From assembly GCA_022414725.1 (NCBI GenBank), contig CM039462.1, forward strand, positions 4,155,161 through 4,219,160: 64,000 nucleotides of DNA, in the 5' to 3' direction. This document shows positions 21,201 to 57,767 of this stretch, in pieces. Source of the stretch: Microglena sp. YARC (Eukaryota > Chlorophyta > Chlorophyceae > Chlamydomonadales > Chlamydomonadaceae). Numbering within the stretch: the first letter of the stretch is position 1; each line of letters starts with the position of its first letter. Position numbers and translations under genes: made by a program. The notes under the pieces are model-generated. The model worked only from the letters and a program-made list of their open reading frames with translations. It was not told where the DNA came from and did not search any database.

Positions 21201-21262
21201 TTTGTATTGCTGTGTGACATACATACACAGTGTGTTTCATACATGCCGTAAGGTAGCCGTGT

Positions 21263-24200
21263 TCATTGCTTTCTCCCAGCACCCAATACCTTCGCTGTGA
21301 TATCAGGCAGGTTGGCAATCCCCGCGTTCATGCGTGTGACCATGTCTACCTCAGTGTCATACAAATTCTGTGGTGCCTTTGGTCCCTCGTGGAGCCTAAT
21401 ACCCTCAAAGAATGGTGGAGGCAGGGGTAAGGTAGGGACCTGGGGTAGGGGAGAGGTATGGTGGTAAGTGGTGGTGGTGGTGGGGATCATACACATTATG
21501 TGGTACGTTCAGTCCCTCGTGGAGCTTAATACCCTCATAGAACGGTGGAGGCAGGGGTAAGGTTGGGACCTGGGGTAGGGGAGAGGTATGGTGGTAAGTG
21601 GTGGTGGTGGTGGTGGTCATATCAATTATGTTGTACGTTTGGTTCCTCAATCAGCCTAGTGCCCTTATAAATTGGTGGAAACAGGGGTTAGGTAGGACCT
21701 TGGGGTAGGGGAGAGGTATGGTGGTAAGTGGTGTGGTGGTAGTGGTGGTGGTCATATCAGTTATGTGGTACGTTTGGTTTCTCGTGCAGCTTAGTACCCT
21801 TATAGAATGGTGGAGGCAGGGGTATGGTAGGAACCAAGGGTAGGGGAGAGGTACGGTGCTAAGTGGGGGTGGTGGTCATACAAATTCTGTGGTTTGTTTG
21901 GTTCCTTGTGGAGCTTATTAAAACCATCATAGAACGGTGGAGGCAGGGGTAAGGTAGGAACTTGGGGTAGGGGAGAGGTACGGTGCTAAGTTGTGGTGGT
22001 GGGAATGGCAGTGCTGGGTAAGGTAGGAACCTGGGGGAGGGGAGAGGTACGGTGGCGGTGTGGCAGGATAGCCTGCTGCTAGTCTAACTTGACATCTCGA
22101 GTATGCCATATCGAAACGTCCCATCGGTTTAGTTCCGTTACAGGCGGGTGGAGGTGGGTGTAAAGTGGTGGGTGGAAGGTTGGTGGAAGGTAGGTGGAAG
22201 GTGGGTGGAAGGTGGGTGGAAGGTGGGTGGAAAGTGGTGGGTGGAAGGTGGGTGAAAAGTGGTGGGTGGAAGGTGGGTGGAAAGTGGTGGGTGGAAGGTG
22301 GAAGGAAGGTGGGTGGAAAGTGGTGGGTGGAAGGGGAAGGTGGAAGGTGGTGGGTGGAATGTGGGTGGAAAGTGGTGGGTGGAAGGTGGGTGGAAGGTGG
22401 GGGCATGAGTAGCAGCACTCACCTTGAGTGCAATGTGGGTGGAAGGTGGGTGGAAGGTGGGTGGAAGGAAGGTGGGGGCATGAGTAGCAGCGCTCACCTT
22501 GAGTGCAAGGTGGGTGGAAGGTGGGTGGAAGGTGGATGGAAGGAAGGTGGGGGCATGAGTAGCAGCGCTCACCTTGAGTGCAAGGTGGGTGGAAGGTGGG
22601 TGGAAAGTGGTGTGTGGAAGGTGGGTGTAAGGAGAAGGTGAGTGGAAAGTGGTGGATGGTGGGTGTAAGGTGGGTGTAAGGAGAAGGTGAGTGGAAAGTG
22701 GTGGATGGAGGAGAAAGGTGGGTGGAAGGTGGGTGGAAGGTGGGTGAAAGGAGAAGGTGAGTGGAAAGTGGTGGATGGAGGAGAAAGGTGGGTGGAAGGT
22801 GGGTGGAAGGAAGGTGGGGGCATGAGTAGCAGCGCTCACCTTGAGTGCCACCATTGGATCTGTGTAGAAGCGCTTATCAAACTTCCAAATCTCCTTCTTG
22901 TCCTTGTCCTCAAAGATAGCGCCCCACGTGTAGTGGTACATGGATGCGTTGTGTGGCTCCAAGTCGTGAGGGGGTTGGGCGATCAGAGTCGTCGTCTTGG
23001 GACCCTCGTTCCTGATGTTCAGCTTGTGGATGGCGACACCAAGATCCCATGCGTACATCTCACGCACCCAGCCTGCATATTGGGTTGAGTGTAGGTAAGG
23101 GTGTGTGCGTGTTTGTGTGCATGTGTGTGGATGGCGACACCAAGATCCCAGGCATGCATCTCACGTACCCAGCCTGCATATTAAGTAAAGTGTAGGTAAG
23201 GGTGTGTGCGTGTTTGTGTGCATGTGTGTGTATGGCGACACCAAGATCCCAGGCATGCATCTCACGTACCCAGCCTGCATATTAAGTAAAGTGTAGGTAA
23301 GGGTGTGTGCGTGTTTGTGTGCATGTGTGTGTATGGCGACACCAAGATCCCATGCGTACATCTCACGCACCCAGCCTGCATATTGGGTTGAGTGTAGGTA
23401 AGGGTGTGTGTATGTTTGCGGATTGTGTGTGGATGGCGACACCAAGATCCCAGGCGCACATCTTACGCACCCAGCCTGCTGGCATAACAGTACAATGGGG
23501 AATTGGGAACAATAGGGAGTTGGGTAAAGTGTAGGTAAGTGTGTTTGTGTGTGTGTGGATTGTGTGTGGATGGCGACACCAAGATCCCAGGCGTGCATAT
23601 CACGCACGCAGCCTGCATATTGGGTAAAGTGTAGGTAAGGGTGTGTGTTTGTGTTTTTGTGTTTTGTGGATTGTGGATTGTGTGTGGATGGCGACACCAA
23701 GATCCCAGGCGTACGTCTCATGCACCCAGCCTGCATATTGGGTTGAGTGTAGGTAAGGGTGTGTGTGGTGGTGGTGGGTGAGTGAGGGTGGTTGGGGAGG
23801 GGCTATGTGTATGTGTGTGTATAGCGACACCAAGATCCCATGCGTACATCTCACGCACCCAGCCTGTTGACATAACAGTACCATGGGATGTTGAGTACAG
23901 TGTAGGTATGGGTTTGTGTGTGTGGGGGGGTGGGGGGGGCGTGTGTGTGGTGTGGGGTGGGTGGGGGGTGGTGTGTGTGGGTGGGGTGGGGTGGGGTGGG
24001 GGTGGGGGTGGGGGTGGGGGCGTGTGTGTGGTGTGTGTGGTGTGGGGGTGTGGTGTGGGGGTGTGTGTGTGTGTGTGGGGGGGGGGGGGGTATGTGGGTG
24101 TGGGTGCTTTGCAAGATGACTCACCTAACGCTGCTTTGGCATCTTAACCTTCCTCAATCCACCTCAATCCACCACACACACACACAAGCACACACCTCCC

Positions 24201-27200
24201 ACCACCACCACCACCACCAAGCACCACATAGCAATATAACTCACATAATGCTGCTTTGGCGTCTTTGTGCGTCTCTATCCACCACGCACAAACACACACA
24301 CGCACACACCTCCCACCACCACCACCACCACCAAGCACAACATAGCAAGATAACTCACATGATGCTGCTTTGGCGTCTTAGTGCGTCTCAATCCACCACG
24401 CACAAACACACACGCACACACACCTCCCACCACCACCACCAAGCACCACTTTGCGAGAGAACCTACCTAATGCTGCCTTGGCGTCTTCGTGCGTCTCAAT
24501 CCACCACGCACACACACACACAGGCACACACCTCCCACCACCACAAAACACACACAACTCCCACCACCACAAAATACCCCCCCCCCCCCCACCCCCCCAC
24601 CAAGCACCACTTGGCGAGAGAACTCACCTAATGCTTCCTTGGCGTCTTAACCCACCTCAATCCACCACGCACACACACACAAACACGCACACACCTCCCA
24701 CCACCACCAAACACACACACTCCCACCACCACCAAATACTCACCCCCCCCACCACCACCACCCCCCCACCACCAAGCACCACTTTGCAAGTGAACTCACC
24801 TAATGCTGCCTTGGCGTCTTTGTGCGTCTCAATCCACAAGCTCAGCTCCTCCCACAGCGGGGTAGCTGCCCGGAAGTCGGAGTAGCGAGCCAGGACAGGT
24901 GCAGGCCCAGAGTCTGGGATGCTGTTTGGGTCAAAGGTAGGGGGGATACTGTTGAGATGCTGTTGGGGTGAGGTGGGGTCGGGTAGGGGGGGTGCTGGGG
25001 TGGGGTGTTGGGATGCTGTTGGGGTCATAAGTAGGGGGGGTACTGTTGGGGTGAGGTGGGGTTGGGTGGGTGGGGTGGGGTGTTGAGATGCTGTTGGGAT
25101 GCTGTTGGGATACTGCTGGGGTCAGAGGCATGGAGCTATGATCAGACAGGCAAGGGGCAGAGCTTTTTGTTCGTTTCAGACAAGCACTGAGCTATGATCC
25201 GACAGGCAGAGGGTGAGATGGGATGTGGGTGATGGGGAAGAGGTGCTGGGTTCTTTTTACAGCTGTTCACATTCAAAAATCCTTTAATATACAACAGACC
25301 ATTTTATAATGCAACGAATCCTTTTAATACACAACAAACCTTTGTACATAAAAAATCATTTTTATGTACAACAGATATTTTTAATATGTGATCCAGCAAA
25401 TCCTTTTTAATATGTGATCCAGCAAATCCTTTTTAACATGTGATCCAGCAAATCCTTTTTAATATGTGATCCAGCAAATCCTTTTTAACATGTGATCCAG
25501 CAAATCCTTTTTAATATGTGATCCAGCAAATCCTTTTTAATATGTGATCCAGCAAATCCTTTTTAATATGTGATCCAGCAAATCCTTTTTAATATGTGAT
25601 CCAGCAAATCCTTTTTAATATGTGATCCAGCAAATCCTTTTTAATATGTGATCCAGCAAATCCTTTTTAATATGTGATCCAGCAAATCCTTTTTAACATG
25701 TGATCCAGCAAATCCTTTTTAATATGTGATCCAGCAAATCCTTTTTAACATGTGATCCAGCAAATCCTTTTTAATATGTGATCCAGCAAATCCTTTTTAA
25801 TATGTGATCCAGCAAATCCTTTTTAATATGTGATCCAGCAAATCCTTTTTAATATGTGATCCAGCAAATCCTTTTTAATATGTGATCCAGCAAATCCTTT
25901 TTAATATGTGATCCAGCAAATCCTTTTTAATATGTGATCCAGCAAATCCTTTTTAATATGTGATCCAGCAAATCCTTTTTAATATGTGATCCAGCAAATC
26001 CTTTTTTAATATGTGATCCAGCAAATCCTTTTTAATATGTGATCCAGCAAATCCTTTTTAATATGTGATCCAGCAAATCCTTTTTAATATGTGATCCAGC
26101 AAATCCTTTTTAATATGTGATCCAGCAAATCCTTTTTAATATGTGATCCAGCAATCCTTTTTTAATATGTGATCCAGCAAATCCTTTTTAATATGTGATC
26201 CAGCAAATCCTTTTTAATATGTGATCCAGCAAATCTTTTTATCCTTTTTTAATACGTGATCCAGCAAATCCAGCAAATTTTTAATATGTGATCCAGCAAA
26301 TCCTTTTTAATATGTGATCCAGCAAATCCTTTTTAATATGTGATCCAGCAAATCCTTTTTAATATGTGATCCAGCAAATCCTTTTTAATATGTGATCCAG
26401 CAAATCCTTTTTAATATACTGTACAACACGTCCTTTTTAATATGTGATCCAGCAAATCCTTTTTAATATGTGATCCAGCAAATCCTTTTTAATATGTGAT
26501 CCAGCAAATCCTTTTTAATATGTGATCCAGCAAATCCTTTTTAATATACTGTACAACACGTCCTTTTTAATATGTGATCCAGCAAATCCTTTTTAATATG
26601 TGATCCAGCAAATCCTTTTTAATATACTGTACAACACGTCCTTTTTAATATGTGATCCAGCAAATCCTTTTTAATATATCCTTTTTAATATGTGATCCAG
26701 CAAATCCTTTTTAATATACTGTACAACACGTCCTTTTTAATATGTGATCCAGCAAATCCTTTTTAATATGTGATCCAGCAAATCCTTTTTAATATACTGT
26801 ACAACACGTCCTTTTTAATATGTGATCCAGCAAATCCTTTTTAATATACTGTACTCCTTTTTAATATGTGATCCAGCAAATCCTTTTTAATATACTGTAC
26901 AACACGTCCTTTTTAATATGTGATCCAGCAAATCCTTTTTAATATGTGATCCAGCAAATCCTTTTTAATATACTGTACAACACGTCCTTTTTAATATGTG
27001 ATCCAGCAAATCCTTTTTAATATGTGATCCAGCAAATCCTTTTTAATATACTGTACAACACGTCCTTTTTAATATGTGATCCAGCAAATCCTTTTTAATA
27101 TACTGTACAACACGTCCTTTTTAATATGTGATCCAGCAAATCCTTTTTAATATACTGTACAACACGTCCTTTTTAATATGTGATCCAGCAAAATCCTTTT

Positions 27201-30200
27201 TAATATACTGTAGCAAATCACGTCCTTTTTAATATGTGATCCAGCAAATCCTTTTTAATATACTGTACAACACGTCCTTTTTAATATGTGATCCAGCAAA
27301 TCCTTTTTAATATACTGTACAACACGTCCTTTTTAATATGTGATCCAGCAAATCCTTTTTAATATACTGTACAACACGTCCTTTTTAATATGTGATCCAG
27401 CAAATCCTTTTTAATATACTGTACAACACGTCCTTTTTAATATGTGATCCAGCAAATCCTTTTTAATATACTGTACAACACGTCCTTTTTAATATGTGAT
27501 CCAGCAAATCCTTTTTAATATACTGTACAACACGTCCTTTTTAATATGTGATCCAGCAAATCCTTTTTAATATACTGTACAACACGTCCTTTTTAATATG
27601 TGATCCAGCAAATCCTTTTTAATATACTGTACAACACGTCCTTTTTAATATGTGATCCAGCAAATCCTTTTTAATATACTGTACAACACGTCCTTTTTAA
27701 TATGTGATCCAGCAAATCCTTTTTAATATACTGTACAACACGTCCTTTTTAATATGTGATCCAGCAAATCCTTTTTAATATACTGTACAACACGTCCTTT
27801 TTAATATGTGATCCAGCAAATCCTTTTTAATATACTGTACAACACGTCCTTTTTAATATGTGATCCAGCAAATCCTTTTTAATATACTGTACAACACGTC
27901 CTTTTTAATATGTGATCCAGCAAATCCTTTTTAATATACTGTACAACACGTCCTTTTTAATATGTGATCCAGCAAATCCTTTTTTAATATACTGTACAAC
28001 ACGTCCTTTTTAATATGTGATCCAGCAAATCCTTTTTAATATACTGTACAACACGTCCTTTTTAATATGTGATCCAGCAAATCCTTTTTAATATACTGTA
28101 CAACACGTCCTTTTTAATATGTGATCCAGCAAATCCTTTTTAATATACTGTACAACACGTCCTTTTTAATATGTGATCCAGCAAATCCTTTTTAATATAC
28201 TGTACAACACGTCCTTTTTAATATGTGATCCAGCAAATCCTTTTTAATATACTGTACAACACGTCCTTTTTAATATGTGATCCAGCAAATCCTTTTTAAT
28301 ATACTGTACAACACGTCCTTTTTAATATGTGATCCAGCAAATCCTTTTTAATATACTGTACAACACGTCCTTTTTAATATGTGATCCAGCAAATCCTTTT
28401 TAATATACTGTACAACACGTCCTTTTTAATATGTGATCCAGCAAATCCTTTTTAATATACTGTACAACACGTCCTTTTTAATATGTGATCCAGCAAATCC
28501 TTTTTAATATACTGTACAACACGTCCTTTTTAATATGTGATCCAGCAAATCCTTTTTAATATACTGTACAACACGTCCTTTTTAATATGTGATCCAGCAA
28601 ATCCTTTTTAATATACTGTACAACACGTCCTTTTTAATATGTGATCCAGCAAATCCTTTTTAATATACTGTACAACACGTCCTTTTTAATATGTGATCCA
28701 GCAAATCCTTTTTAATATACTGTACAACACGTCCTTTTTAATATGTGATCCAGCAAATCCTTTTTAAGTGAAATATGTGATCCAGCAAATCCTTTTTTAA
28801 TATACTGTACAACACGTCCTTTTTAATATGTGATCCAGTCAAATCCTTTTTAATATACTGTACAACACGTCCTTTTTAATATGTGATCCAGCAAATCCTT
28901 TTTAATATACTGTACAACACGTCTTTTTAATATGTGATCCAGCAAATCCTTTTTAATATACTGTACCTCCTTTTAATATGTGATCCAGCAAATCCTTTTT
29001 AATATACTGTACAACACGTCCTTTTTAATATGTGAATCCAGCAAATCCTTTTTTAATATACTGTACAACACGTCCTTTTTAATATGTGATCCAGCAAATC
29101 CTTTTTAATATACTGTACAACACGTCCTTTTTAATATGTGATCCAGCAAATCCTTTTTAATATACTGTACAACACGTCTTTTTAATATGTGATCCAGCAA
29201 ATCCTTTTTAATATACTGTACAACACGTCCTTTTTAATATGTGATCCAGCAAATCCTTTTTAATATACTGTACAACACGTCCTTTTTAATATGTGATCCA
29301 GCAAATCCTTTTAATATGTGAAGCAAATCCTTTTTAATATACTGTACAACACGTCCTTTTTAATATGTGATCCAGCAAATCCTTTTTAATATACTGTACA
29401 ACACGTCCTTTTTAATATGTGATCCAGCAAATCCTTTTTAATATACTGTACAACACGTCCTTTTTAATATGTGATCCAGCAAATCCTTTTAATATACTGT
29501 ACAACACGTCCTTTTTAATATGTGATCCAGCAAATCCTTTTTAATATACTGTACACACGTCCTTTTTAATATGTGATCCAGCAAATCCTTTTTAATATAC
29601 TGTACAACACGTCCTTTTTAATATGTGATCCAGCAAATCCTTTTTAATATACTGTACAACACGTCCTTTTTAATATGTGATCCAGCAAATCCTTTTTAAT
29701 ATACTGTACAACACGTCCTTTTTAATATGTGATCCAGCAAATCCTTTTTAAATATACTGTACAACACGTCCTTTTTAATAATGTGATCCAGCAAATCCTT
29801 TTTAATATACTGTACAACACGTCCTTTTTTAATATGTGATCCAGCAAATCCTTTTTAATATACTGTACAACACGTCCTTTTTAATATGTGATCCAGCAAA
29901 TCCTTTTTAATATACTGTACAACACGTCCTTTTTAATATGTGATCCAGCAAATCCTTTTTAATATACTGTACAACACGTCCTTTTTAATATGTGATCCAG
30001 CAAATCCTTTTTAATATACTGTACACACACGTCCTTTTTAATATGTGATCCAGCAAATCCTTTTTTAATATACTGTACAACACGTCCTTTTTAATATGTG
30101 ATCCTTTTTAGCAAATCCTTTTTAATATACTGTACAACACGTCCTTTTTAATATGTGATCCAGCAAATCCTTTTTAATATACTGTACAACACGTCCTTTT

Positions 30201-33200
30201 TAATATGTGATCCAGCAAATCCTTTTTAATATACTGTACAACACGTCCTTTTTTAATATGTGATCCAGCAAATCCTTTTTAATATACTGTACAACACGTC
30301 CTTTTTAATATGTGATCCAGCAAATCCTTTTTAATATACTGTACAAACACGTCCTTTTTTAATATGTGATCCAGCAAATCTTTTTAATAATACTGTACAA
30401 CACGTCCTTTTTAATATGTGATCCAGCAAATCTTTAGTACAAACACGTCCTTTTTAATATGTGATCAAGCAAATCCTTTTTAATATGTGACTCCTTTTTT
30501 AATATACTGTACAACACGTCCTTTTTAATATGTGATCCAGCAAATCCTTTTTAATATACTGTACAACACGTCCTTTTTAATATGTGATCCAGCAAATCCT
30601 TTTTAATATACTGTACAACACGTCCTTTTTAAATGTGATCCAGCAATCCTTTTTAATATACTGTACAACACGTCCTTTTTAATATGTGATCCAGCAAATC
30701 CTTTTTAATATACTGTACAACACGTCTTTTTAATATGTGACCAGCAAATCCTTTTTAATATATACTGTACAACACGTCTTTTTAATATGTGATCCAGCAA
30801 ATCCTTTTTTAATATACTGTACAACACGTCCTTTTTAATATGTGATCCAGCAAATCCTTTTTAATATACTGTACAACACGTCCTTTTTAATATGTGTCCT
30901 TTTATCCAGCAAATCCTTTTTAATATACTGTAACAACACGTCCTTTTTTAATATGTGATCCAGCAAATCCTTTTAATATACTGTACACACGTCCTTTTTT
31001 AATATGTGATCCAGCAAATCCTTTTTAATATACTGTACAACACGTCCTTTTTAATATGTGATCCAGCAAATCCTTTTTAATATACTGTACAACACGTCCT
31101 TTTTAATATGTGATCCAGCAAATCCTTTTTAATATACTGTACAACACGTCCTTTTTAATATGTGATCCAGGCAAATCCTTTTTAATATACTGTACAACAC
31201 GTCCTTTTTAATATGTGATCAGCAAATCCTTTTTAATATACTGTACAAACACGTCCTTTTTAATATGTGATCCAGCAATCTTTTAATATACTGTACAACA
31301 CGTCCTTTTTAATATGTGATCCAGCAATCCTTTTTAATATACTGTACAACACGTCCTTTTTTAATATGTGATCCAGCAAATCCTTTTTAATATACTGTAC
31401 AACACGTCCTTTTTAATATGTGATCCAGCAAATCCTTTTTAATATACTGTACAACACGTCCTTTTTAATATGTGATCCAGCAAATCCTTTTTAATATACT
31501 GTACAACACGTCCTTTTTAATATGTGATCCAGCAAATCCTTTTTAATATACTGTACAACACGTCCTTTTTAATATGTGATCCAGCAAATCCTTTTTAATA
31601 TACTGTACAACACGTCCTTTTTAATATGTGATCCAGCAAATCCTTTTTAATATACTGTACAACACGTCCTTTTTAATATGTGATCCAGCAAATCCTTTTA
31701 ATATACTGTACAACACGTCCTTTTTTAATATACTGTACAACCGAGTCAGCAAATCCTTTTTAATATACTGTACAACACGTCCTTTTTAATATGTGATCCA
31801 GCAAATCCTTTTTAATATACTGTACAACAATATACTGTACCACGTTTTTTAATATGTGATCCAGCAAATCTTTTTAATATACTGTACAACACGTCCTTTT
31901 TAATATTCCTTCTTTAATGTGATCCAGCAAATCCTTTTTAATATACTGTACAACACGTCCTTTTTAATATGTGATCCAGCAAATCCTTTTTAATATACTG
32001 TACAACACGTCCTTTTTAATATGTGATCCAGCAAATCCTTTTTAATATACTGTACAACACGTCCTTTTTAATATGTGATCCAGCAAATCCTTTTTAATAT
32101 ACTGTACAACACGTCCTTTTTAATATGTGATCCAGCAAATCCTTTTTAATATACTGTACAACACGTCCTTTTTAATATGTGATCCAGCAAATCCTTTTTA
32201 ATATACTGTACAACACGTCCTTTTTAATATGTGATCCAGCAAATCCTTTTTAATATACTGTACAACACGTCCTTTTTAATATGTGATCCAGCAAATCCTT
32301 TTTAATATACTGTACAACACGTCCTTTTTAATATGTGATCCAGCAAATCCTTTTTAATATACTGTACAACACGTCCTTTTTTAATTTTTTTAATATGTGA
32401 TCCAGCAAATCCTTTTTAATATACTGTACAACACGTCCTTTTTAATATGTGATCCAGCAAATCCTTTTTAATATACTGTACAACACGTCCTTTTTAATAT
32501 GTGATCCAGCAAATCCTTTTTTAATATACTGTACAACACGTCCTTTTTAATATGTGATCCAGCAAATCCTTTTTAATATACTGTACAACACGTCCTTTTT
32601 AATATGTGATCCAGCAAAATCCTTTTTAATATACTGTACAACACGTCCTTTTTAATATGTGATCCAGCAAATCCTTTTTAATATACTGTACAACACGTCC
32701 TTTTTAATATGTGATCCAGCAAATCCTTTTTAATATACTGTACAACACGTCCTTTTTTAATATGTGATCCAGCAAATCCTTTTTAATATACTGTACAACA
32801 CGTCCTTTTTAATATGTGATCCAGCAAATCCTTTTTAATATACTGTACAACACGTCCTTTTTAATATGTGATCCAGCAAATCCTTTTTAATATACTGTAC
32901 AACACGTCCTTTTTAATATGTGATCCAGCAAATCCTTTTTAATATACTGTACAACACGTCCTTTTTAATATGTGATCCAGCAAATCCTTTTTAATATACT
33001 GTACAACACGTCCTTTTTAATATGTGATCCAGCAAATCCTTTTTAATATACTGTACAACACGTCCTTTTTAATATGTGATCCAGCAAATCCTTTTTAATA
33101 TACTGTACAACACGTCCTTTTTAATATGTATCCAGCAAATCCTTTTTTAATATACTGTACAACACGTCCTTTTTTAATATGTGATCCAGCAAATCCTTTT

Positions 33201-40859: not shown

Positions 40860-40901
<42 letters not shown>

Positions 40902-42041
40902 TAATTGCACTTGAATAGGAGAGGATCTGCCCTGAAGGTGTCGATATGCGGGTAAGGGGCTTGTGGGGTTTAGTGTGCAGAGGGGCTGGAGGTGTGTGGG
41001 GGCCCACCCACCCACACACAAACACTTACCCACCTCCCAGTAGACTCATTCACCCACAAGTCACCTCATCTATCAGGGCATCAAGCTTGGTATGATGGAA
41101 GATTCTAGTCATAGCTACCATCTTTTCCCCCCACCCGCCCCCCCCACCACCCACCCACAAACACACACCTCCAGCCCACCAGCAAACTTGCTTGCCCCCC
41201 CCACCCACCCACCCACCCACCCACCCACAAACACACAAACACACACGAACACCCCCCAGTAGACGACTCACCTCATCCATCAAGGCATCAGGCTTGGTAA
41301 CGATGGTAGAATTCTGGTCATGGCAACCATCTTCTCTCCCCCACACCCACCCACACCCACACAAAACACCCATCCTTCCCCACTCCCCAGTAGACAACTC
41401 ACCTCATCCATCAAGGCATCAGGCTTGGTACGATGGAGAATTCTGGTCATCGCAACCATCTTCTCTCCCCCCCACCCCACCCACACCCACACAAAACACC
41501 CATCCTTCCCCACTCCCCAGTAGACAACTCACCTCATCCATCAAGGCATCAGGCTTGGTACGATGGAGAATTCTGGTCATCGCAACCATCTTCTCTCCCC
41601 CCACCCACCACCCACCCACACAAAACACCCATCCTTCCCCACTCCCCAGTAGACAACTCACCTCATCCATCAAGGCATCAGGCTTGGTACGATGGAGAAT
41701 TCTGGTCATCGCAACCATCTTCTCTCCCCCCCACCCCACACCCACACAAAAACACCCATCCTTCCCCACTCCCCAGTAGACAACTCACCTCATCCATCAA
41801 GGCATCAGGCTTGGTACGATGGAGAATTCTGGTCATCGCAACCATCTTCTCTCCCCCAGGCAGCTTCTGGGCGATGTTGAAGGTCGCAACCATGATACGA
41901 GCTTGAAAGTTCTGGTAGGGAGATCCGTTGGAGGTGAAGAAGACATGCATGGTATCCTCGCGATGGCCGGCAGTCTTGGAGTAGGCCAAGGCATCGAAAG
42001 CAGCTGTGGTGGCAATTGTCTCTGCAGACCTGGCGTAGGGG

Positions 42042-42072
<31 letters not shown>

Positions 42073-45000
42073 ATGGGAATAGTCTCTGCAGACCTGAATT
42101 GGGGGGAGTTGAGAAGAGATGGGAAAAGATTGGAGGAAGAGAGATCCGTTCGAGTGAAGAAGAAGTGCATGGTATCCTCAGGATGGCCCGCAGTCTTGGA
42201 GTAGGCCAAGGCATCGAAAGCAGCGGTGGTGGCCATTGTCTTTGCAGACCTGGCGTAGGGGGGAGGGGGGGGGGGAGATGGGAATAGTCTCTGCAGACCT
42301 GAATTGGGGGAGTAGGGAAGAGATGGGAAGAGATTGGAGGAAGAGAGATCCGTTCGAGGTAAAGAAGACGTCCATGGTATCCTCAGGATGGCCCGCAGTC
42401 TTGGAGTAGGCCAAGGCATCGAAAGAAGCGGTGGTGGCCATTGTCTCTGCAGACCTGAATTGGGGGAATAGGGAACATGGGAACATGGGAACAGGGAATT
42501 GTGAGAATAGGGGAGAGATGGGAACATATCAGAAGTTCTGGTAGGGAGATCCGTTGGAGGTGAAGAAGACGTGCATGGTCTCCTCGGGATGGCCGGCAGT
42601 CTTGGAGTAGGCCAAGGCAACAAAAGAAGCGGTGGTGGCAATTGTCTCTGCAGACCTGATATAGGGGTGGGTGAGAGGTTAGGGAAGAGATGCGAATAGT
42701 CTCTGCAGACCTGCATTGGGGGAATAGGGAACATGGGAGCAGGGAATTGGGAGAATAGGGGAGAGATGGGAACATATCGGAAGTTATGGTAGGGAGATTC
42801 ATTGGAGGTGAAGAAGACGTGCATGGTCTCCTCGGGATGGCTGGCAGTCTTGGAGTAGGCCAAGGCATTTAAAGTAGCGGTGGTGGTCATAGTCTCTGCA
42901 GACTTGACATACTGGGAATTGAGGACGGATGGGGGCAGATTGGGGGGGTAGGAAAGACATATGAACATATTGGAGGTACATGAAAGAGATGGGAACAGAT
43001 TTGGGGGTTATGAAAGAGTAAGAACAGCTTGGGGGGAAAGAATAGGGAATAGGGAATAGGGAATAGGGAACAGATTGGGGGAATAGGGAAAAGGGAATAG
43101 GGAATAGGGAACAGGGAATATGTTGGGGGAATAGGGAATATGGAATATGTAACATGGGAGAGTAGGAACAGATTGGGGGGAGAGGGAATAGGGAATAGGG
43201 AATAGGGAATAGGGAATAGGGAATAGGGAACAGATTGGGGGAATAGGGAATAGGGAATAGGGAATAGGGAATAGGGAATAGGGAACAGATATAGGGAACA
43301 GGAATAGGGAATAGGGAATAGGGAATAGGGAATAGGGAATAGGGAATAGGGAATAGGGAACAGATATAGGGAATAGGGAATAGGGAATAGGGAAATCAGG
43401 GAATAGGGAATAGGGAATAGGGAATAGGGAATAGGGAATAGGGAATAGGGAATAGGGAATAGGGAACAGATATAGGGAATAGGGAATAGGGAATAGGGAA
43501 TAGGGAATAGGGAACAGATTGGGGGAATAGGGAATAGGGAATAGGGAATAGGGAATAGGGAATAGGGAATAGGGAATAGGGAATAGGGAATAGAGAATAG
43601 GGAACAGATTGGGGGAATAGGGAATAGGGAATAGGGAATAGGGAACATGTTCATTACCTCTGCCCCTTGGTGCTGGCATTTCCACTTGGAGCAGCAGCAG
43701 TGATGGCAGCTTTGCTGGCATCAGTGGTACTGGCTGTAGTGCTGGCAGTGCTGGCTGCAGTGCTGGCTGTGGTGCTGGCTGCTTTGCTGGCATCAGCATT
43801 GGCCTTAGCGTTGATGTTTTCCAGCGACTTGCTAGCCTCCTTGAGCAGCGACGTCGCGTGTTGCACGTGTGCCACAGTGGATGCGATGCCTGATCCAAGC
43901 TCAACAGGAGGCGGCGGAGAGGAGACAGGTGCTGAGGACGTGGATGCCTGTCCCGCCGTCGGGCTGCCAGTGCTGCTGGTGGTGGTGGTGCTGCTGGTGG
44001 TGGACGTAGGTGCTTGTCCCGTTGTTGGGCTGTCATTGGTGGTGGCAGCGGTGGAGGCGGCGGCAGTGGTGGTGGCAGCGGGGGTGGTGGTGGTGACGGC
44101 GGGGGTGGTGGTGGTGACGGCGGGGGTGGTGGTGGTGACGGCGGGGGTGGTGGTGGTGGTGGAGGACTCTGCGCCTGAGGCAACTGCTACGGTGCTCGCG
44201 TGCTTTTTGGTCTCGCTCATGTCAGACTGGCCCTGCAGACAACGAGTGAGATGGTGAGATGGTGTGTTTGTTTTGTGTGTGTTTTGAGTTTGTGTGTGTG
44301 GCAACTGCCACGATGCTAGCTTACTCCTTGGTCTCGCTCGTGTCAGACTGGCCCTGAAGACAACATGTGAGATGGTGAGATGGTGTGTGCTTGCGTGTGT
44401 TTGAGTTTGTATGTGGTGCAACTGCCCCAGTTCTAGCGTGCTCCTTGGTCTCGCTGATGTCTGACTGGCCCTGAAGACAACATATGAGATGTTGAGATGG
44501 TGCTTGTTTGTGTGTGCTTGTGTGTGTTTGAGTTTGTGTGTGGTGCAACTGCCACGGTGCTCGTGTGCTCCTTGGTCTCGCTCATGTCAGACTGGCCCTG
44601 CAGACAACGTGTGAGATAGTGAGATGGTGACCTTGTGCATGTTCTTGTGTGTTTGTTTTTATGGGCAGATACCTACGGGTTTTATAGGGCAAACTACAGT
44701 GGTTGCAACAGAGGTAGAGCATCCATAGTTAGCATCACTCAAGCCAAGCCAAATCCCACACCTGATGAACACAACTCTATGTTTTCAACGTAGTGGACCC
44801 TAGAAAAACTGTGTGTTCAGACATGAAATGTAACGTTTTGAACAACATTGGTGTTTGTATGAATGTATATATGTATGTCTATGTATGTTGCAGTTCAGGG
44901 GTAGGCCAAATAGGATATAAGGACTTGCCCAACCGTGACAGGAAGGGCTGAAAATAAAAAGCATTGATGAACAACTTTGGTGACAACAACATGTGGAGAC

Positions 45001-46717
45001 GTGGGTAGGTGTAGAAATGATTCATACATACAGGAATATATAAACATAGACATAGAAAACATAGAAATGCAGAAGGTGGAGTATATGGACAAACAGAAAC
45101 ATACCGAAACGCATAAGGTGAAATGTATAGACATATAGACTTAAACAAATATATAGAATCGCATCGAAGGCGAAGTCTGCAGGGGTCCCGCTCCACCCAT
45201 CCACCCATCAGCACCATCCTCACCCCATTACCCCTTCACCCCAATCAGCCCCAGCCTCGGCCCACCACCCCATCAGCACCAGCCTCAGCACCACCCCATC
45301 AGCACCAGCCTCAGCCCCGACCCATCAGCACCAGCCTCACCCCACCACCCATCAGCACCAGCCTCACCCCACCACCCCATCAGCACCAGCCTCAGCCCAC
45401 CACCCCATCAGCACCAGCCTCAGCCCACCACCCATCAGCACCAGCCTCACCCCACCACCCCATCAGCACCAGCCTCACCCACCACCCCATCAGCACCAGC
45501 CTCACCCACCACCCCATCAGCACCAGCCTCAGCCCACCACCCCCCCATCAGCGACCAGCCTCAGCCCACCACCCCATCAGCACCAGCCTCACCCCACCAC
45601 CCCATCAGCAGCAACCCACCACCCATTCAGCACCAGCCTCACACCACATCAGCACCAGCCTCACCCCACCACCCATCAGCACGAGCCTCACCCCACCACC
45701 ATCAGCACCAGCCTCAGCCCACCCCCCATCAGCACCAGCCTCACCACCACCCATCAGCACCAGCCTCACCCCACCACCCATCAGCACCAGCCTCAGCCCA
45801 CCACATCAGCACGGCAGCCTCAGCCCACCACCTCATCAGCACCAGCCTCACCCCACCACCCCATCAGCACCAGCCTCACCCCACCACCCATATCAGCACA
45901 GCCTCAGCCCACCACCCCATCAGCACCAGCCTCACCCACCACCCCATCAGCACCAGCCTCACCCACACCCCATCAGCACCAGCCTCAGCCCACACCCCAT
46001 CAGCAGCCAGCCAATCACTTACAAGCTTCTGCAAGTTGATCTCGTCAGACTGGTGCTCGTGATGAGAAGACTGACCCTGAAGTATGAGCTTTGCGTTTGC
46101 ATGGTGGCGTTCATCTGTTTACACAGGAAGGAGTGGGCAAACAAATTGGATGGATGGGTGGATGGATTGGTGGATGGATGGGTTGATGGATGGGGGGGGG
46201 ATGGATGGGTGGATGGTGTTTTTACGACTGATACTCAATTATGAGCTTTGCGTTTGCCTGGTGGCGCTGATCTGTTTAACGCAGGTAGGAGTGGGCAGAG
46301 TAAATGGATGGATGGATGGATGGATGGATGGGGTAAGATGGGGGGGGGGGGGTACGGGAGGGGGGGGGGGGGGGGGGGGGGGATGTTTTTTTTTTACGAC
46401 TGATACTGAATTGTGAGCTTTGCGTTTGCCTGGTGGCGCTCATCTGTTTACGCAGGAAGGAGTGGGCAGAGTAAATGGATGGATGGATGAATGGATGGGT
46501 GGGGGGTAGATGGATGGGAGGGGGTAGATGGATGGATGGTTGGTTTTTTTAAGACTGATACTGAATTATGAGCTTTGCTTTTGTGTGGTGGGGAGGGGGA
46601 TGGGGGGATGGATGGGTAGATGGATGGGTGGGAGGGTGGATGGATGGATTGGAGGAGGGGGGGAGGGAATGGATGGGGTGGGGTGGGGTGTGTGTGTGTG
46701 TGGGTGTGTGTGTGTGT

Positions 46718-46794
<77 letters not shown>

Positions 46795-49700
46795 TGGATG
46801 GATGTGTTGATTGTTCTCTAGTAGCCCAAAAATGAACTTCTTTTTCAACACCTTCCGCTCCGATAGCCAACACTATCCACCAATGTTTCCAAGTCGCTTA
46901 CAACGCGCCTAGGACTTGTACCTTTGACCTGGACAAGTCTTTAAACTGCCTAATCTGCTTAGTATGCTCCCTGGTTACAGTGGGTATCGCACCGGGGGGC
47001 CTGGACATGGTCTACGGTGACGGGGAGCAGCGCAGAGTTGGCCGAAGAACCATGTCACAATTCAAATTCAAACATTCAAATTATTGATGTGATGGGTACC
47101 CCCGTCTCGGTCTTACCTAAGATGCTGGTGAATGTCACAATTCAAATTTGAAAATCCAAATCATCAATGGGGTGGTTACCCCATCTCAGTCATGCCTAAG
47201 ATGCTGGTGAATGTCACAATTCGAATTTAAACATCCAAATTACCGATGGGATGGTTACCCCTGTCCCAGTCTTCCCTAACATGCTGGAGAATGTCACAAT
47301 TCAAATCCAATATTCAAATTATCAATGGGATGGTTCCCCTGTCCCAGTCTGGGATCAAATTATTGATGGGATGGTTCCCCTGTCCCCTGTCCCAGCCCTA
47401 CCTAAGATGCTGGTGATGACGTTGTGGGGAGGAGGGCGTGCTATGCTTATCGCCCCAACAAATCGCGGTGTACGTTCATCACCTGCATCTTTCCCCTGGC
47501 AAAAGAGGAAACGAGGTGATAAGAGATTAAGGGTTTAGGGTTCGGTGAAAAGAGGTGAAAAGAGGTGGACAGAGGAGAAAAGGTGGTAGAAAGAGGTGAA
47601 AAAGGTGGAACAGAGGAGAAAAGGTGGTGAAAAGAGGTGGACAGAGGAGAGAAGAGGTGGCCGAAAGGTGGCAAGCATCTTTCCCTGGCAATAGAGGACA
47701 CGCGGTGGACAGGAAAGAAGGTGGTAAGAGGTGGAGAGAGAAAAAGGTGGTAAAAAGAGGTGATAAGAGGTGGACAGAGGAGAAAAGAGGTGGGAAAAAG
47801 GTGGCAAGCATCTTTACCCTGGCAAGAGAGAAAACGAGGTGGACTGTGGAAAAAAGGCGGTAAGAGGTGGAAAAAAGGCGGTAAGAGGCGGACTGTGGAA
47901 AAAAGGCGGTAAGAGGTGGACTGTGGAAAAAAGGCGGTAAGAGGTGGACTGTGGAAAAAAGGCGGTAAGAGGTGGACTGTGGAAAAATGGCGGTAAGAGG
48001 TGGACTGTGGAAAAAAGGCGTTAAGAGGTGGACTGTGGAAAAAAGGCGGTAAGAGGTGGACAGAACAAGACCTAGACAGCATCACAAGCAACGCAGAAAA
48101 TTGGCGGAGAGTGTTGGCAACGGAATCGAGCGAACTAATTTTGGGGTTTTTTTGTCACCCTTTTATTGGGCTTAACAGGGTGTATTTAGGGTGGGAAGGG
48201 TGTGCCGCAGGGGTGCAGAAAAGGGTGCCGAAGACCCCCTCAATCTGCAGTGACCAGTCAGTGTACTTGACCTGGTCTTTGAGTAAGTGATGCTACCCAC
48301 TGGTAGATAGGAAGGTCGTTGTCACCCTTTTATTGGGCTTAACAGGGTGTATTCTGGGTGGGAAGGGTGTGCCGCAGGGGTGCAGAAAAGGGTGCCGAAG
48401 ACCCCCCAAATTTGCAGTGCAGTTTAATGGCAACTGCTGTATCCTTCAATTGCTACGCCTTAGTGCACCATGGCAGCAGACTACTTGCATGGGACGGGTT
48501 ATTGAGGGGTTCTGTCTGACAAAGGATAAAAAAGCATCGTCGCTATGCACGTTGGAAAAGGAACAGTGTCTGGTGTGTATTTGCAATGTAGTCGAATAGC
48601 AACTGCTGTATCCTTCAATTGCTACGCCTTAGTGCACCATGGCAGCAGACTACTTGCATGGGACGGGTTATTGAGGGGTTCTGTCTGACAATGGATCAAA
48701 AAGCATCGTCGCTATGCACGTTGGAAAGGGAACAGTTCTGGTGTGTATTTGCAATGTAGTTGAATAGCAACTGCTGTATACTTCAATTGTTACGCCTTCG
48801 TGCACCATGACAACAGACTACTTGCATGGGACGGGCCATTGGGGGGTTCTGTCTGACAAAGGATCAAAAAGCATCGTTGCTATGCACGTTGCTAAGGGAA
48901 CAGTGTCTGGTTTGTAGTTGCAATGTAGTTGAATAGCAACTGCTGTATACTTCAATTGCTACGCCTTCGTGCACCATGACAACAGACTACTTGCATGGGA
49001 CAATCCTGTTTCGACAACTGGCTCAATGGTAGAGCTTGTTGAAATGCTGAAATGTACGGGGTTGGAATTCCTACGGGTGCGCTTTAGTGTTTGCGGTCGC
49101 TGTCAACCGCCATGGCAGCTTTGCCCAGGTAAAGTAGCAGCCCGTTCCCTACCACCGGTAGACCGTTCTCCCTTAATAGCACGCCCCACCAGGCGTTATC
49201 ATTTCTTGCATGGGACTGGTTATTGAGGGGTTCAGTCCAATAGCTCATTAGCTTGTAAGTTGTCTGGTGTTGGTGAGGTAACATTTTACCACATAATCCA
49301 ATATACTGTTTAAGTAATAATCCACAATGGTTATAATCAACAGTACATTGATTATATTATGGAGGGGGTCAGTCTGACAGCTCATCCGCTCGCAATTGGG
49401 CTCCGACCCCACCCCCCCCCCACCCCCCCACCCCCAAGCCATGCCCTCTCCAACCACGACCTCCCCCCTCCTCCCTCCCCTCCCCTCTGTTTCCCCTCCC
49501 TCCCCTCCCTTCTGTTTCCCCTCCCTCCCCTCGCCTCGCCTCCCTGTCCTGCCCCCCCCCCCCCCCCCCCCCCCCCCTCTCCTCCCTCTCCTGCCTCTCC
49601 CTCACTCCTTCCCTCACTCCTCCCTCCTCTTCGGACGAGGTGGACAAGGCGGGGTTGACGGACGAGATGGCTGAAGAGACAAGCTCTGCTCCCGCATGCC

Positions 49701-50050
49701 TCTCCCCCCCCACCCCTCCCTCTCCCCCTCTCCCATCAGAAAATAAGCCCCTTGTATCTTAGCCACACCATCAAGTCACCTTCCACACACCTTCGTGGCA
49801 GACAAGGTGGACAAGGCATGGTTTGCAGACTAGATGAATGGAGAGACAAGCTATGCTCTGCTCCTCCATGCCTTCTCCTGCCCCCCCACCCACCCCCCTC
49901 CCTATCCTCCTCTCCCATCACAAAAGAAATCCCTTATATCTAAGCCATGCAAGCAAGCCACCTTCCACACACCTTCGTAGCGGACAAGGCGTGGTTGGCA
50001 GATGAGATGGATGAAGTGACAAGCTCCCTCCTGCTAGCAGACATCAGATC
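21263..50050 (-). CDS. HPAT: Hydroxyproline O-arabinosyltransferase (HPAT)-type glycosyltransferase, at least ten exons
   Basis: Exons in transcript order: 49973-50050, 47402-47495 (weaker), 46023-46076, 43658-44232, 41789-42029, 38456-38638, about 37125-37229, 24800-24921, 22840-23072, 21263-21439 (stop). Most junctions agree in phase. The 47495 exon to 46076 join does not, and the 3' end of the 37.1 kb exon is unresolved. Ser/Thr/Ala-rich low-complexity sequence (43.7-44.2 kb) precedes the catalytic part. Family hallmarks follow in order: [52 protein letters not shown] (metal-site region, EPDH in plants), [32 protein letters not shown] and [14 protein letters not shown]. HPATs add arabinose to hydroxyproline of secreted proteins in the Golgi. 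No start codon or membrane anchor was found. The gene spans about 29 kb. Confidence 0.82.
21490..22050 (-). repeat. HPAT: Last HPAT intron: five decoys of the terminal exon's acceptor edge
   Basis: The true acceptor CTACCCCAG|GTCCCTACC is at 21440. Copies of CCCCTACCCCAGGT, CCTACC and CCCTGCCTCCACC with part of the YEGIKLHEG coding sequence recur near 21530, 21665, 21805, 21935 and 22020 at spacings of about 85-140 bases. GTGGTG simple repeats separate them. Confidence 0.85.
22140..22839 (-). repeat. HPAT: GGTGGGTGGAA minisatellite with decoy donor edges of the GWVREMY exon
   Basis: Three extra copies of the exon end and donor (CACTCAAG|GTGAGCGCTGCT followed by ACTCATGCCCCC) lie near 22425, 22488 and 22565. 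The true one is at 22840/22839. Between them runs a G-rich repeat of GGTGGGTGGAA units. Some units interleave with GAGAAGGTGAGTGGAAAGTG, itself donor-like on the plus strand only. Confidence 0.85.
23095..23900 (-). repeat. HPAT: Seven decoy acceptor edges of the GWVREMY exon
   Basis: The true acceptor is ATATGCAG|GCTGGGTG at 23073/23072. The phrase CAGGCTGGGTGCGTGAGATG, then TACGC, TGGGATCTTGGTGTCGCCAT, recurs about every 100-130 bases near 23170, 23270, 23370, 23470, 23600, 23730 and 23865. Each copy is preceded by its own polypyrimidine tract and CTTACCTACACT. Each keeps the first 45-50 bases of the exon with few substitutions. Confidence 0.9.
23905..24110. repeat. G/T-rich simple sequence
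   Basis: GTGTGTG and GGGGTGGGGGTG tracts, including a run of 13 G at about 24077-24090, inside an HPAT intron. Confidence 0.85.
24112..24799 (-). repeat. HPAT: Five decoy donor edges of the HPAT exon ending KDAKAAL
   Basis: The true donor is GCATTAG|GTGAGT at 24800/24799. Copies of GACGCACAAAGACGCCAAGG, then CAGCATTAGGTGAGTT, recur near 24118, 24240, 24357, 24470 and 24625 at spacings of about 115-155 bases. They are separated by CACACA and CACCACCAC tracts. Together with 23095-23900 this one intron consists of acceptor-edge copies at one end and donor-edge copies at the other. Confidence 0.9.
24922..25135 (-). repeat. HPAT: Decoy acceptor edges of the 24.8-24.9 kb exon
   Basis: The phrase CTACCTTTGACCCAAACAG before CATCCC at the exon start (24922/24921) recurs with variants near 25015 and 25090-25120, within CCCCACC-rich sequence. 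Confidence 0.6.
25275..37115. repeat. Giant intronic minisatellite of two alternating 26-bp units (about 11.8 kb)
   Basis: Unit A is TCCTTTTTAATATGTGATCC+AGCAAA. Unit B is TCCTTTTTAATATACTGTAC+AACACG. Both are 26 bp and share the first 13 bases. A degenerate prelude (25275-25375) leads to A-only sequence (to about 26400), then mixed A-rich patterns with occasional B, then strict A-B alternation (52-bp dimer) from about 27060 to 36740, roughly 185 dimers, then a broken-up edge to 37115. Stops (TAA) in every frame rule out coding. It sits in the HPAT intron between the exons at 37.1 and 24.9 kb. The stretch at about 28.75-31.9 kb is full of one-base indels and partial units, while other long stretches are perfect. 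Confidence 0.97.
37230..37735. repeat. G/T-rich TTTGGG-type repeat in an HPAT intron
   Basis: Irregular runs of GGTTTGGTTTGGGTTGGGG with several GGG tracts, a G-quadruplex candidate on the plus strand (non-template for HPAT). Overlapping long frames here are Gly/Trp/Val simple sequence. Confidence 0.85.
37740..38455 (-). repeat. HPAT: Decoy donor edges of the exon ending [11 protein letters not shown]
   Basis: The true donor is CTCGTG|GTGAGC at 38456/38455. Copies of the exon end (GGAGACAGACTACGTGTGGA, TCAAGCCTCTCGTG) with donor and the following CTGGCAGTTTTATTTT recur near 38030-38085, 38150-38215 and 38340-38390, with a shorter copy near 37990. GCTATATAATAAGC-type sequence lies at 37830-37890. 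Confidence 0.85.
38639..39985 (-). repeat. HPAT: Sixteen tandem decoy acceptor edges of the [16 protein letters not shown] exon, period about 83 bp
   Basis: Each unit carries CCCACAG|ATCGACACCTTC, then CGGGCAGATCCTCTCCAGCC, CGAGTGCGACAACTGG, followed by CCCACCACCCACACC. That is the true acceptor (38639/38638) plus the first 48 coding bases. Units recur at about 83-base spacing from 38670 to 39950. Long open frames cross the array in all minus-strand frames, an effect of the repeat and not evidence of a gene. Confidence 0.95.
40060..40960 (-). repeat. HPAT: Diverged exon copies and decoy acceptors further upstream
   Basis: 40085-40205 is a longer copy of the 38.5 kb exon, with matches through the NAMQQ region but frame-shifted. 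Shorter copies with an acceptor and a [17 protein letters not shown] start lie at about 40640-40690, 40755-40805 and 40900-40950. Runs of G include 39 bases at 40862-40900. These look like older layers of the same amplification. Confidence 0.8.
41040..41788 (-). repeat. HPAT: Five decoy donor edges of the [12 protein letters not shown] exon, period about 130 bp
   Basis: The true donor is GATGAG|GTGAGT at 41789/41788. Each copy holds about 60 coding bases (GAGAAGATGGTTGCGATGAC through CCTTGATGGATGAG), the donor, and the following TTGTCTACTGGGGAGTGGGG. Copies lie near 41070-41125, 41265-41335, 41395-41465, 41525-41595 and 41660-41725. CCCACC/CACA tracts fill the gaps. Confidence 0.93.
42030..42920 (-). 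repeat. HPAT: Copies of the 5' half of the HVFFTSN exon
   Basis: Four long copies (about 42150-42256, 42345-42460, 42530-42656, 42780-42905) keep the acceptor AG|GTCTGCAGAGAC and 100-130 coding bases through HVFFTSN, with frame mostly open and a few substitutions. Three short copies carry only the acceptor and about 15 bases (42080-42100, 42285-42305, 42695-42715). G runs lie at 42045-42072 and 42261-42275. The true exon is 41789-42029. Confidence 0.9.
43030..43650. repeat. (GGGAATA)n 7-bp repeat
   Basis: Nearly uninterrupted GGGAATA units with occasional GGGAACAGATTGGGGGAATA interruptions, in the intron just after the Ser/Thr/Ala-rich HPAT exon. Because 7 is not a multiple of 3, all minus-strand frames stay open as IPYSLFP repeats; these are not genes. 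Confidence 0.95.
44233..44640 (-). repeat. HPAT: Three decoy acceptor edges of the [13 protein letters not shown] exon
   Basis: The true acceptor is GTCTGCAG|GGCCAGTC at 44233/44232. Copies of the acceptor plus about 55 coding bases (GGCCAGTCTGACACGAGCGA and variants through CTTGCC-type sequence) recur near 44355, 44475 and 44597, spaced about 120 bases, joined by CACACACAAACTCAAACAC. Confidence 0.9.
44880..44985 (-). repeat. Dispersed short element (GGTTGGGCAAGTC family)
   Basis: On the minus strand: GTTCATCAATGCTTTTTATT, CAGCCCTTCC, CGGTTGGGCAAGTCCTTATA, CCTATTTGGCCTACCCCTG and CTGCAACATACATA with a microsatellite tail. It closely matches 19760-19880 and 58605-58710 (+). Confidence 0.75.
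45195..46015. repeat. 28-bp minisatellite (CCCATCAGCACCAGCCTCAC+CCCACCAC)
   Basis: About 28 units, many with small deletions, inside the HPAT intron between the exons at 46.0 and 44.2 kb. The plus-strand frame crossing it (Ser/Pro/His-rich) has no domain and is treated as repeat-derived. Confidence 0.92.
46077..46800. repeat. Intronic duplications upstream of the 54-bp HPAT exon, with a 74-base poly-G run
   Basis: The intron sequence next to the small exon (on plus: CTGATACTGAATTATGAGCT, TTGCGTTTGC, GGTGGCGCTCATCTGTTTA) recurs near 46085, 46236, 46400 and 46555, separated by GGAT repeats. An uninterrupted G run spans 46720-46793 (74 bases). A small missing HPAT exon may lie at about 46815-46890, where a short open stretch is flanked by weak splice signals. 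Confidence 0.75.
46925..47075 (+). repeat. Dispersed family with CAAGTCTTTAAACTG head
   Basis: Same element as at 20585 and 54885: CAAGTCTTTAAACTGCC, TGCTCCCTGGTTACAGTGGG, ATCGCACCGGGGGGCC, GGGGAGCAGCGCAGAGTTGG and AACCATGTCACAATTCAAAT. Its A/T-rich 3' end continues into the tandem array at 47060-47400. Confidence 0.75.
47060..47401 (-). repeat. HPAT: Tandem copies joining an element tail with a decoy donor edge
   Basis: Units of about 85-90 bases combine GTCACAATTCAAATT-type sequence from the preceding element with, on the minus strand, CACCAGCATCTTAG|GTAAGA, the end and donor of the putative exon at 47402-47495. At least three copies precede the true edge. This array fuses a retroposon tail with an exon edge. 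Confidence 0.75.
47496..48075 (-). repeat. HPAT: 28-bp minisatellite with two decoy acceptor edges
   Basis: The true acceptor is TTGCCAG|GGGAAAGATGC at 47496/47495. Copies of TTGCCAGGGAAAGATGCTTG lie near 47685 and 47815. The rest is GAGGTGGACTGTGGAAAAAA+GGCGGTAA (28 bp) and shortened GAGGTGGACAGAGGAGAAAA units. Confidence 0.8.
48150..49260 (+). repeat. Tandem repeats of about 170 bp with a SINE inserted in the last unit
   Basis: A first repeat (TGTCACCCTTTTATTGGGCT through GGGTGCCGAAGACCCCC) occurs at 48153 and 48320. A second, starting AGCAACTGCTGTATCCTTCA and including TTGCATGGGACGGGTTATTG, has units at about 48427, 48598, 48765 and 48936. The last unit is split by the SINE at 49002-49204. 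No coding content is seen. Confidence 0.85.
49002..49204 (+). mobile_element. tRNA-derived SINE, copy 2, with perfect 12-bp target duplication
   Basis: A box TGGCTCAATGG (49019-49029), decayed B box near 49060-49071, and body phrases CTGTCAACCGCCATGGCAGC, CTCCCTTAATAGCACGCCCC and ACCAGGCGTTATCATT shared with 20019-20228. It is flanked by CTTGCATGGGAC at 48990-49001 and 49205-49216. The neighbouring tandem units show the uninterrupted site, so insertion into the array is directly visible. Confidence 0.93.
49380..49620. repeat. C-rich low-complexity sequence
   Basis: CTCCCCTCCC repeats and a C run of about 25 bases (49552-49576). Frames on both strands here are Pro/Ser or Gly/Glu simple sequence. 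Confidence 0.85.
49625..49972 (-). repeat. HPAT: Decoy donor edges of the most upstream HPAT exon found
   Basis: The true donor is TACGAAG|GTGTGTGG at 49973/49972. Diverged copies of the exon end (encoding variants of [11 protein letters not shown]) with a donor-like GAAG|GTGTGTGGAAGGT lie at about 49790-49860, and a more distant one at 49640-49690. Confidence 0.7.
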
Positions 50051-50099
50051 CTACGAGACAAAAACATTAAGATCATCAACATTACAATCAGCATCTTAG

Positions 50100-57684: not shown

Positions 57685-57767
57685 TTGCGGCGCATTGACT
57701 TCCCACCAATAAGAGTGGCGTTGGGTGACCTCCTTCGCTGATGAGCGCGACGAGTGTAGATTCTGCG

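Follow-up and report, generated by a model that had tools for sequence, protein, structure and literature searches.

The window analysed here is a stretch of 64,000 nt from the genome of the green alga Microglena sp. YARC, with a GC content of 0.48 and without N. Its minus strand carries a gene whose spliced protein matches the Pfam family PF23452 (E=1.8e-42), and this match, together with the homologues, bears out the earlier identification of the gene as a hydroxyproline O-arabinosyltransferase (HPAT). The top matches by E-value are Haematococcus and Chlamydomonas-type proteins with 60-63% identity, which points to a chlamydomonadalean host. The exons were placed using PF23452, homologues and splice signals; E1-E4 are predicted from splice signals, the reading frame and a partial resemblance to P0001 and are less certain than exons a-h, and both ends of the d-e intron are likewise less certain. 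The gene and the satellite that fills this intron are as follows:

21264..51211, minus strand: HPAT gene, 11 exons placed
51211-51062, minus strand: predicted exon E1
50050-49973, minus strand: predicted exon E2
47495-47402, minus strand: predicted exon E3
46114-46023, minus strand: predicted exon E4
44232-43658, minus strand: exon a
42029-41789, minus strand: exon b
38638-38456, minus strand: exon c
37229-about 37140, minus strand: exon d, donor unplaced, adjoining the satellite
25378..37108, no strand: satellite of 52-bp units occupying the d-e intron, not derived from exon edges
About 24923-24800, minus strand: exon e, the e end of the d-e intron being less certain
23072-22840, minus strand: exon f
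21439-21264, minus strand: exon h

Two public gene models, P0014 and P0067, probably belong to the window's own species, judging from their sequences. P0014 matches the HPAT query at 89% over 53% of the query; its pieces are 98% identical to exon e and 100% identical to exon h, its f piece is short by 15 residues, and its f-h junction is the one placed here. The stretch at about 22080-22140 (TELNRWDV...) was ruled out as an HPAT exon, since P0014 joins f directly to h, in frame. The satellite of the d-e intron extends over 11.5 kb and comprises about 220 units of 52 bp with 94% matches; its unit found no match among 62 loci sampled from the same genome. The Thr/Pro-rich linker of exon a contains a 21-bp tandem array of 4.4 units (44066-44158, minus strand), which is a tolerated, frame-keeping duplication inside an exon.

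At most junctions of the HPAT gene, the adjacent intron holds copies of the exon edge, in which exonic nucleotides, the splice site and some intron sequence recur together:

50050..50540, minus strand: E2 acceptor repeats, unit about 118 bp, nearest copy with 35 exonic nt
49600..50030, minus strand: E2 donor, 2 copies by blastn, unit about 170 bp, 54-63 exonic nt
47485..47826, minus strand: E3 acceptor, 1 copy, about 12 exonic nt (0.04 matches expected)
47052..47413, minus strand: E3 donor, 3 copies (2 by blastn), unit about 80 bp, 15 exonic nt
46114..46630, minus strand: E4 acceptor, 3 copies by blastn, 46-48 exonic nt
44180..44663, minus strand: exon a acceptor, 3 copies, unit about 120 bp
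41914..42906, minus strand: exon b acceptor, 4 long copies (unit about 205 bp, 116-123 exonic nt) and 3 short ones
41065..41858, minus strand: exon b donor, 5 copies, unit about 129 bp, 68-70 exonic nt
38591..40967, minus strand: exon c acceptor, 20 copies, 16 of them in an 82-bp array, mostly 47-48 exonic nt (16 of the 19 copies found by blastn)
37937..38505, minus strand: exon c donor, 3 copies with 44-48 exonic nt and 2 with 12
24125..24840, minus strand: exon e donor, 5 copies, 38 exonic nt (blastn lists 4, all with 38 nt)
23025..23866, minus strand: exon f acceptor, 7 copies, spacing 100-137 bp, 48 exonic nt (7/7)
22402..22850, minus strand: exon f donor, 3 copies, unit 75 bp, about 9 exonic nt (0 expected by shuffling)
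21357..22002, minus strand: exon h acceptor, 4 copies with 83-84 exonic nt and a fifth with 15, unit about 130 bp
21090..21312, minus strand: duplicate of the coding-sequence end with the stop codon (last about 110 nt), downstream of the HPAT gene

The last of these is a duplicated edge other than a splice junction. The array counts given in the initial annotation were recovered: 16 acceptor decoys at 38.6-40 kb besides the true site, with four more upstream to 40.9 kb; 7 acceptors at 23.1-23.9 kb; 5 donors at 24.1-24.8 kb by alignment (4 by blastn); 5 donors at 41.0-41.8 kb; 5 acceptors at 21.5-22.0 kb, provided that the one with 15 exonic nt is counted; and 4 long plus 3 short acceptor copies at 42.0-42.9 kb.

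Overall, copies were found in the adjacent intron at 14 of the 19 placed junctions, which confirms the presence of junction-spanning arrays in this gene. Twelve of these junctions were identified by blastn (at least 12 exonic and at least 6 intronic nt), and the f donor and E3 acceptor were added; the d donor lies outside the 19. No copy was kept at the E1, E4 and a donors or at the d and e acceptors (5/19). Broad simple-sequence alignments of 64-70% at E2, the E4 acceptor and donor, a and h, as well as one 63% match 3 kb away from the d acceptor, were dropped before counting.

The copies have a regular shape. Sliding 32-mers through the exons revealed that they extend inward from the exon edge and sit in the intron of the same side, and the exon-side unit proved to be the true exon in all arrays counted. 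The exonic reach, determined by blastn for each junction, is nearly constant within an array and ranges from about 9 to 123 nt over all arrays. Single copies reach up to 128 nt, the deepest ones extending that far into exon b and, in one copy, exon c, while exon h is covered from both ends. The unit length is about 75-205 bp at donors and acceptors alike. A looser measure detected a local copy for 51 of the 100 probes located within 40 nt of an HPAT exon edge and for 40 of the 106 deeper ones, and none of 1533 shuffled probes attained the cut-off. The exon interiors are not empty of copies because of the 128-nt reach, the two-sided coverage of exon h and the repetitive linker of exon a. Duplicated sequence covers 46/69 points (67%) within 60 nt of an exon, 215/273 (79%) at 61-300 nt and 471/725 (65%) beyond; thus, 65-79% of the HPAT introns is duplicated, compared with 14-17% of the sequence outside the gene.

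Junction copies also occur, at some junctions, in a second, unrelated gene of the window, for which the three pieces scanned gave no Pfam match:

8788-15357, plus strand: second gene, four-exon Cys-rich modules in tandem, exons 94-99% identical
8682..8820, plus strand: exon A1 acceptor, duplicated (67 bp)
13180..13300, plus strand: decayed copy of the exon B2 donor edge, 69% identical
13680..14421, plus strand: exon C2 acceptor, array of about 10 units of 73 bp, 18 exonic nt
14810..15080, plus strand: two decayed copies of the exon D2 acceptor edge

Decayed edge copies were found at the D1 acceptor too, and none were kept at the paralogous C1 and A2 acceptors or at the other junctions tested. 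The paralogous B-C introns of the two modules are 123 and 1426 bp long. We considered this pair as the states before and after intron growth but did not retain it as evidence for either direction of change, as the copies in the long intron are only 69-75% identical to the exon edges; they predate the module duplication, and the 123-bp intron may therefore be a contraction.

Could the copies have been brought in by a mobile or spreading intron element, similar to introners, that inserts at junctions? The introns of several gene families are affected in one genome (see below), as such an element would predict. Within the window, however, the array units of six HPAT junctions and of one junction of the second gene find nothing but the junction they belong to or its paralogue (E 1e-8), and a comparison of the same seven units with the 62 sampled loci (289,307 bases) returned a single 31-nt match, to another HPAT-like locus. 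On the evidence of the window and these 62 loci, an origin of this kind is very improbable.

Another question is whether the copies serve as splice sites. AG or GT is kept in 49 of the 57 decoys of ten arrays, so that the units do span the junctions and leave dozens of decoy sites, as had been claimed; among the E3 donor decoys, which are outside the 57, GT is kept in 1/3. Such conservation might be expected of alternative acceptors and donors that yield protein variants or regulate the transcript. The public model P0067, which includes exon b and renders the c region badly, indeed reads the exon b acceptor copies as coding, and gene predictors in such genomes can do likewise. Nevertheless, an in-frame, stop-free insertion is possible from only 8/57 decoys, stops or frameshifting indels are present in some copies, and arrays are absent from the paralogous C1 and A2 junctions. 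The exonic distance of the copies to the true site ranges from 0 to 0.29, with substitutions and indels in many of them.

The distribution of differences over codon positions bears on the same question. The true exon and at least one copy differ at 137/1100, 140/1096 and 226/1090 sites of codon positions 1, 2 and 3, respectively (40 contributing exon cores of 55; five cores with one in-frame stop), and none of 4000 shuffles, with exon and base context as strata, attained the 226 third-position sites. An excess at third positions is expected if it is mainly the true exon that is constrained. On a rough reading, decay of the copies would be even over codon positions, at about 0.126 per site, with mostly silent changes of the true exon adding about two thirds of this value at third positions, which yields the observed 0.207; the calculation pools the sites and is no fitted model. 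Differences among the copies themselves also favour third positions (60 vs 46.3 expected, p=0.002; in a second count, 113 vs 93.7 expected, p=0.002). This bias could be taken as a sign of function, but the first and second positions differ as well, and we consider it very unlikely that the copies are functional. The bias is unexpected from one-time neutral copying and suggests that the copies left the true edge at different times, since budding of this kind would produce it. The youngest copies would then be expected nearest to the exon, and this is unsupported by the exonic distances to the true site, which do not rise along the distance from the exon (p=0.24); distances between neighbouring copies rise weakly (p=0.05).

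These observations raise the question of whether edge copies are a peculiarity of one window. At 13 other HPAT-family loci of the same genome, copies were found at 49 of 86 exon ends (23/43 and 26/43, on the tolerated side) and in 5 of 44 exon middles. In the reversed-sequence control, the values were 1/43, 1/43 and 0/44, respectively. This sample comprises 44 of 56 Pfam matches, the remainder being 2 in the window, 4 unsampled and 6 weak or overlapping ones, and one low-complexity end was dropped per side, leaving 43 each. At kinase loci, copies were found at 11/22 ends and in 0/11 middles, for 11 of 136 matches hand-picked as short partial-domain matches, and at proteasome loci at 4/46 ends and in 0/23 middles, for all 23 matches listed. 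The kinase and proteasome loci were left in their original orientation, which does not affect the sum over both ends. Edge copies are therefore not the universal rule of intron growth that was first supposed, in view of the proteasome loci. Local duplication density differs between the families as well: at a distance from exons, cover is about 12% at proteasome and 34% at kinase loci (both >300 nt) and 46-54% at HPAT-like loci (>480 nt), and the edge-copy rates roughly track it.

The survey also bears on a possible artefact of assembly. Repeats of this type are hard to assemble, and an amphioxus draft misassembled one (mentioned in a part of PMC3087553), so long-read mis-joins or expanded repeats had to be considered. 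This explanation is highly improbable: many of the copies differ by substitutions and indels, and such copies flank 35/44 HPAT-like exons (in a looser test) and 7/11 kinase exons, on several contigs.

The key question is whether duplication is aimed at exon-intron boundaries, as the initial annotation proposed; such aim might come, for example, from coupling to splicing, R-loops or reverse-transcribed splicing intermediates. Copies at 14 of 19 junctions of a single gene and the heavy duplication of its introns relative to the sequence outside could be read in this way, and so could the 44-48 nt of exonic reach common to four arrays (the c, f and E4 acceptors and the c donor), which may be chance or a hint of an anchor. 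Over all arrays, however, the reach varies widely, and the stop-codon end of the gene is duplicated as well.

Cover profiles at the other loci are more informative. In HPAT-like exons, cover is 60/694 (9%) deeper than 60 nt, 141/436 (32%) at 31-60 nt and 213/423 (50%) at 1-30 nt. In the introns it is 173/343 (50%) at 0-30 nt, 50% at 31-60 nt, 42% at 61-240 nt, 46-48% at 241-960 nt and 2475/4591 (54%) beyond 960 nt. Copies are thus clearly commoner at exon ends than deep inside exons; the contrary result had been named beforehand as grounds for abandoning the idea of edge-derived introns. Selection alone can explain the contrast between exon depth and exon end. No peak of cover is seen at the ends: end minus intron cover is 0.012 on average, with the end higher in 7/12 genes (Wilcoxon p=0.73), although the ends of Pfam matches stand only approximately for exon ends, which could smear out a narrow peak. 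Across the 12 genes, cover at the ends and cover in the introns are correlated (rho 0.75, p=0.005). When only the tolerated direction is counted, flank points are covered less often (1535/4449 upstream and 1667/4449 downstream, 35-37%) than the ends (53-60%), as aimed duplication would predict; counted in either direction, they reach 2261/4449 (51%), near the rate at the ends. Kinase cover is 14/286 in the exon interior, 74/158 at 0-60 nt, 336/660 (51%) at 61-300 nt and 867/2546 (34%) beyond 300 nt; its excess within 300 nt would also favour aim. At proteasome loci, cover is low everywhere, and the few copies at their ends do not fit a process directed to junctions as such.

An account without aim can be given as follows. 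Slippage, unequal exchange or template switching would duplicate short stretches at a high rate in introns that would formerly have been about 100-125 bp long, so that nearly every tolerated duplication would have overlapped an exon edge. The survivors would be the duplications that leave one intact, correctly bounded exon, and those within exons would mostly be lost. The spliceosome would pair the acceptor and donor nearest to the exon body (exon definition) and hence ignore the decoys, and the edge copies would become the building material of intron lengthening. Unaimed tandem duplication was simulated with exon lengths and periods taken from the HPAT gene and its arrays, and products were retained only if one set of intact exons remained. 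The share of edge-touching duplications was 96, 92, 72, 52 and 18% for ancestral introns of 100, 125, 200, 300 and 1000 bp, respectively. Introns of this size are represented in the window, as a 123-bp one persists in the second gene. Short ancestral introns and selection can thus give rise to the edge rule without aim: a boundary-centred process is not needed to explain the arrays and, as the absence of a peak at HPAT-like exon ends indicates, is not what the cover profiles of these loci suggest.

Several observations run against the unaimed account. Kinase cover is not flat, the HPAT exon interiors in the window are not clearly depleted (40/106 vs 51/100), four arrays have a common reach that may be more than chance, and the approximate Pfam ends may blur a peak. 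In addition, the exonic part of the copies is nearer to the true site than the intronic part in 7/9 arrays, and all donor arrays carry about 60 or more intronic nt per unit, beyond what splicing needs. Taking both sides together, we regard it as likely that the HPAT arrays are junction-spanning minisatellites ('mirages', see below) that arose by untargeted tandem duplication, and duplication aimed at the boundaries as unlikely.

The arrangement itself is already known, contrary to the first impression that no such system had been described. In the amphioxus (lancelet) reports, in the parts available to us, 'mirages' are minisatellite-like tandem duplications spanning the exon-intron boundary at acceptors and donors, described for the globins BflGb6 and BflGb9, Adh3, troponin C and PGBD5; their units measure 10-160 bp, AG or GT is present in many copies, the length differs between haplotypes, and regular splicing is left undisturbed according to the authors' RT-PCR (PMC3087553, PMC3902484). 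The HPAT units resemble those described in these parts in spanning the boundary with an exonic and an intronic portion (at 14/19 junctions), in affecting both 5' and 3' boundaries, in their minisatellite-like length, which exceeds the amphioxus range in a few arrays, and in that many, though not all, copies keep AG or GT (49/57 here; 1/3 at the E3 donor). They differ in occurring in a green alga, with up to 20 copies per site and at most junctions of one gene, and in extending to about half of the exon ends tested in two families, compared with five named genes, and no genome-wide count, in the amphioxus passages.

Other systems are related more distantly. In Chlamydomonas reinhardtii and Volvox carteri, the density of tandem repeats is highest in introns, with more of them near intron-exon junctions (PMC3887541); this agrees with the position of the repeats here, and the relevant passages of that survey do not mention exon-edge copies. 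Internal gene duplication, as outlined in portions of PMC4974935 and PMC3443670, likewise involves tandem duplication touching coding sequence and splice signals, but in that case a new intron arises from a duplicated exonic AGGT, whereas in the present gene it is introns already there that seem to have grown longer, with decoys that look unused. Variable internal tandem repeats of human paralogues overlap exon-intron boundaries, as here; unlike the present ones, they alter transcripts and, in recent duplicates, can give rise to new introns, according to the sections of PMC2812944 concerned. In a literature search made mostly at the level of listings and largely among papers outside subscription, no account of edge copies in algal introns was recognised. 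The novelty lies in the kingdom, in how many junctions are affected and in the quantitative test.

These results suggest that intron growth can be accounted for simply and quantitatively, with neither targeting nor transposons. The several-fold higher duplication at HPAT-like and kinase loci than at proteasome loci is a family difference that goes beyond the current account. It is conceivable, at somewhat less than an even chance, that in this alga the introns of many genes owe their lengthening from about 100 bp to kilobases mainly to mirage growth. In that case, with copies budding from a true edge that changes slowly, each array would be a dated series of past states of this edge, and splicing would be strictly exon-defined, ignoring dozens of near-perfect decoys per transcript. 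The locus also offers a dense natural test of splice-site choice, in which the true site stands beside up to 20 copies with the same exon start and mostly with AG.

By eye, two pairs of nearly identical frames were noticed in the final 12 kb of the window: 52188-52568 (minus strand) with 63228-63623 (plus strand), and 58976-59224 with 62682-62897 (both plus strand). They are perhaps parts of transposable elements; the one paired frame scanned had no Pfam match. Positions 56638-57873 of the minus strand contain a 412-aa frame without interruption, which encodes ankyrin repeats and, at the C-terminus, a RING finger.
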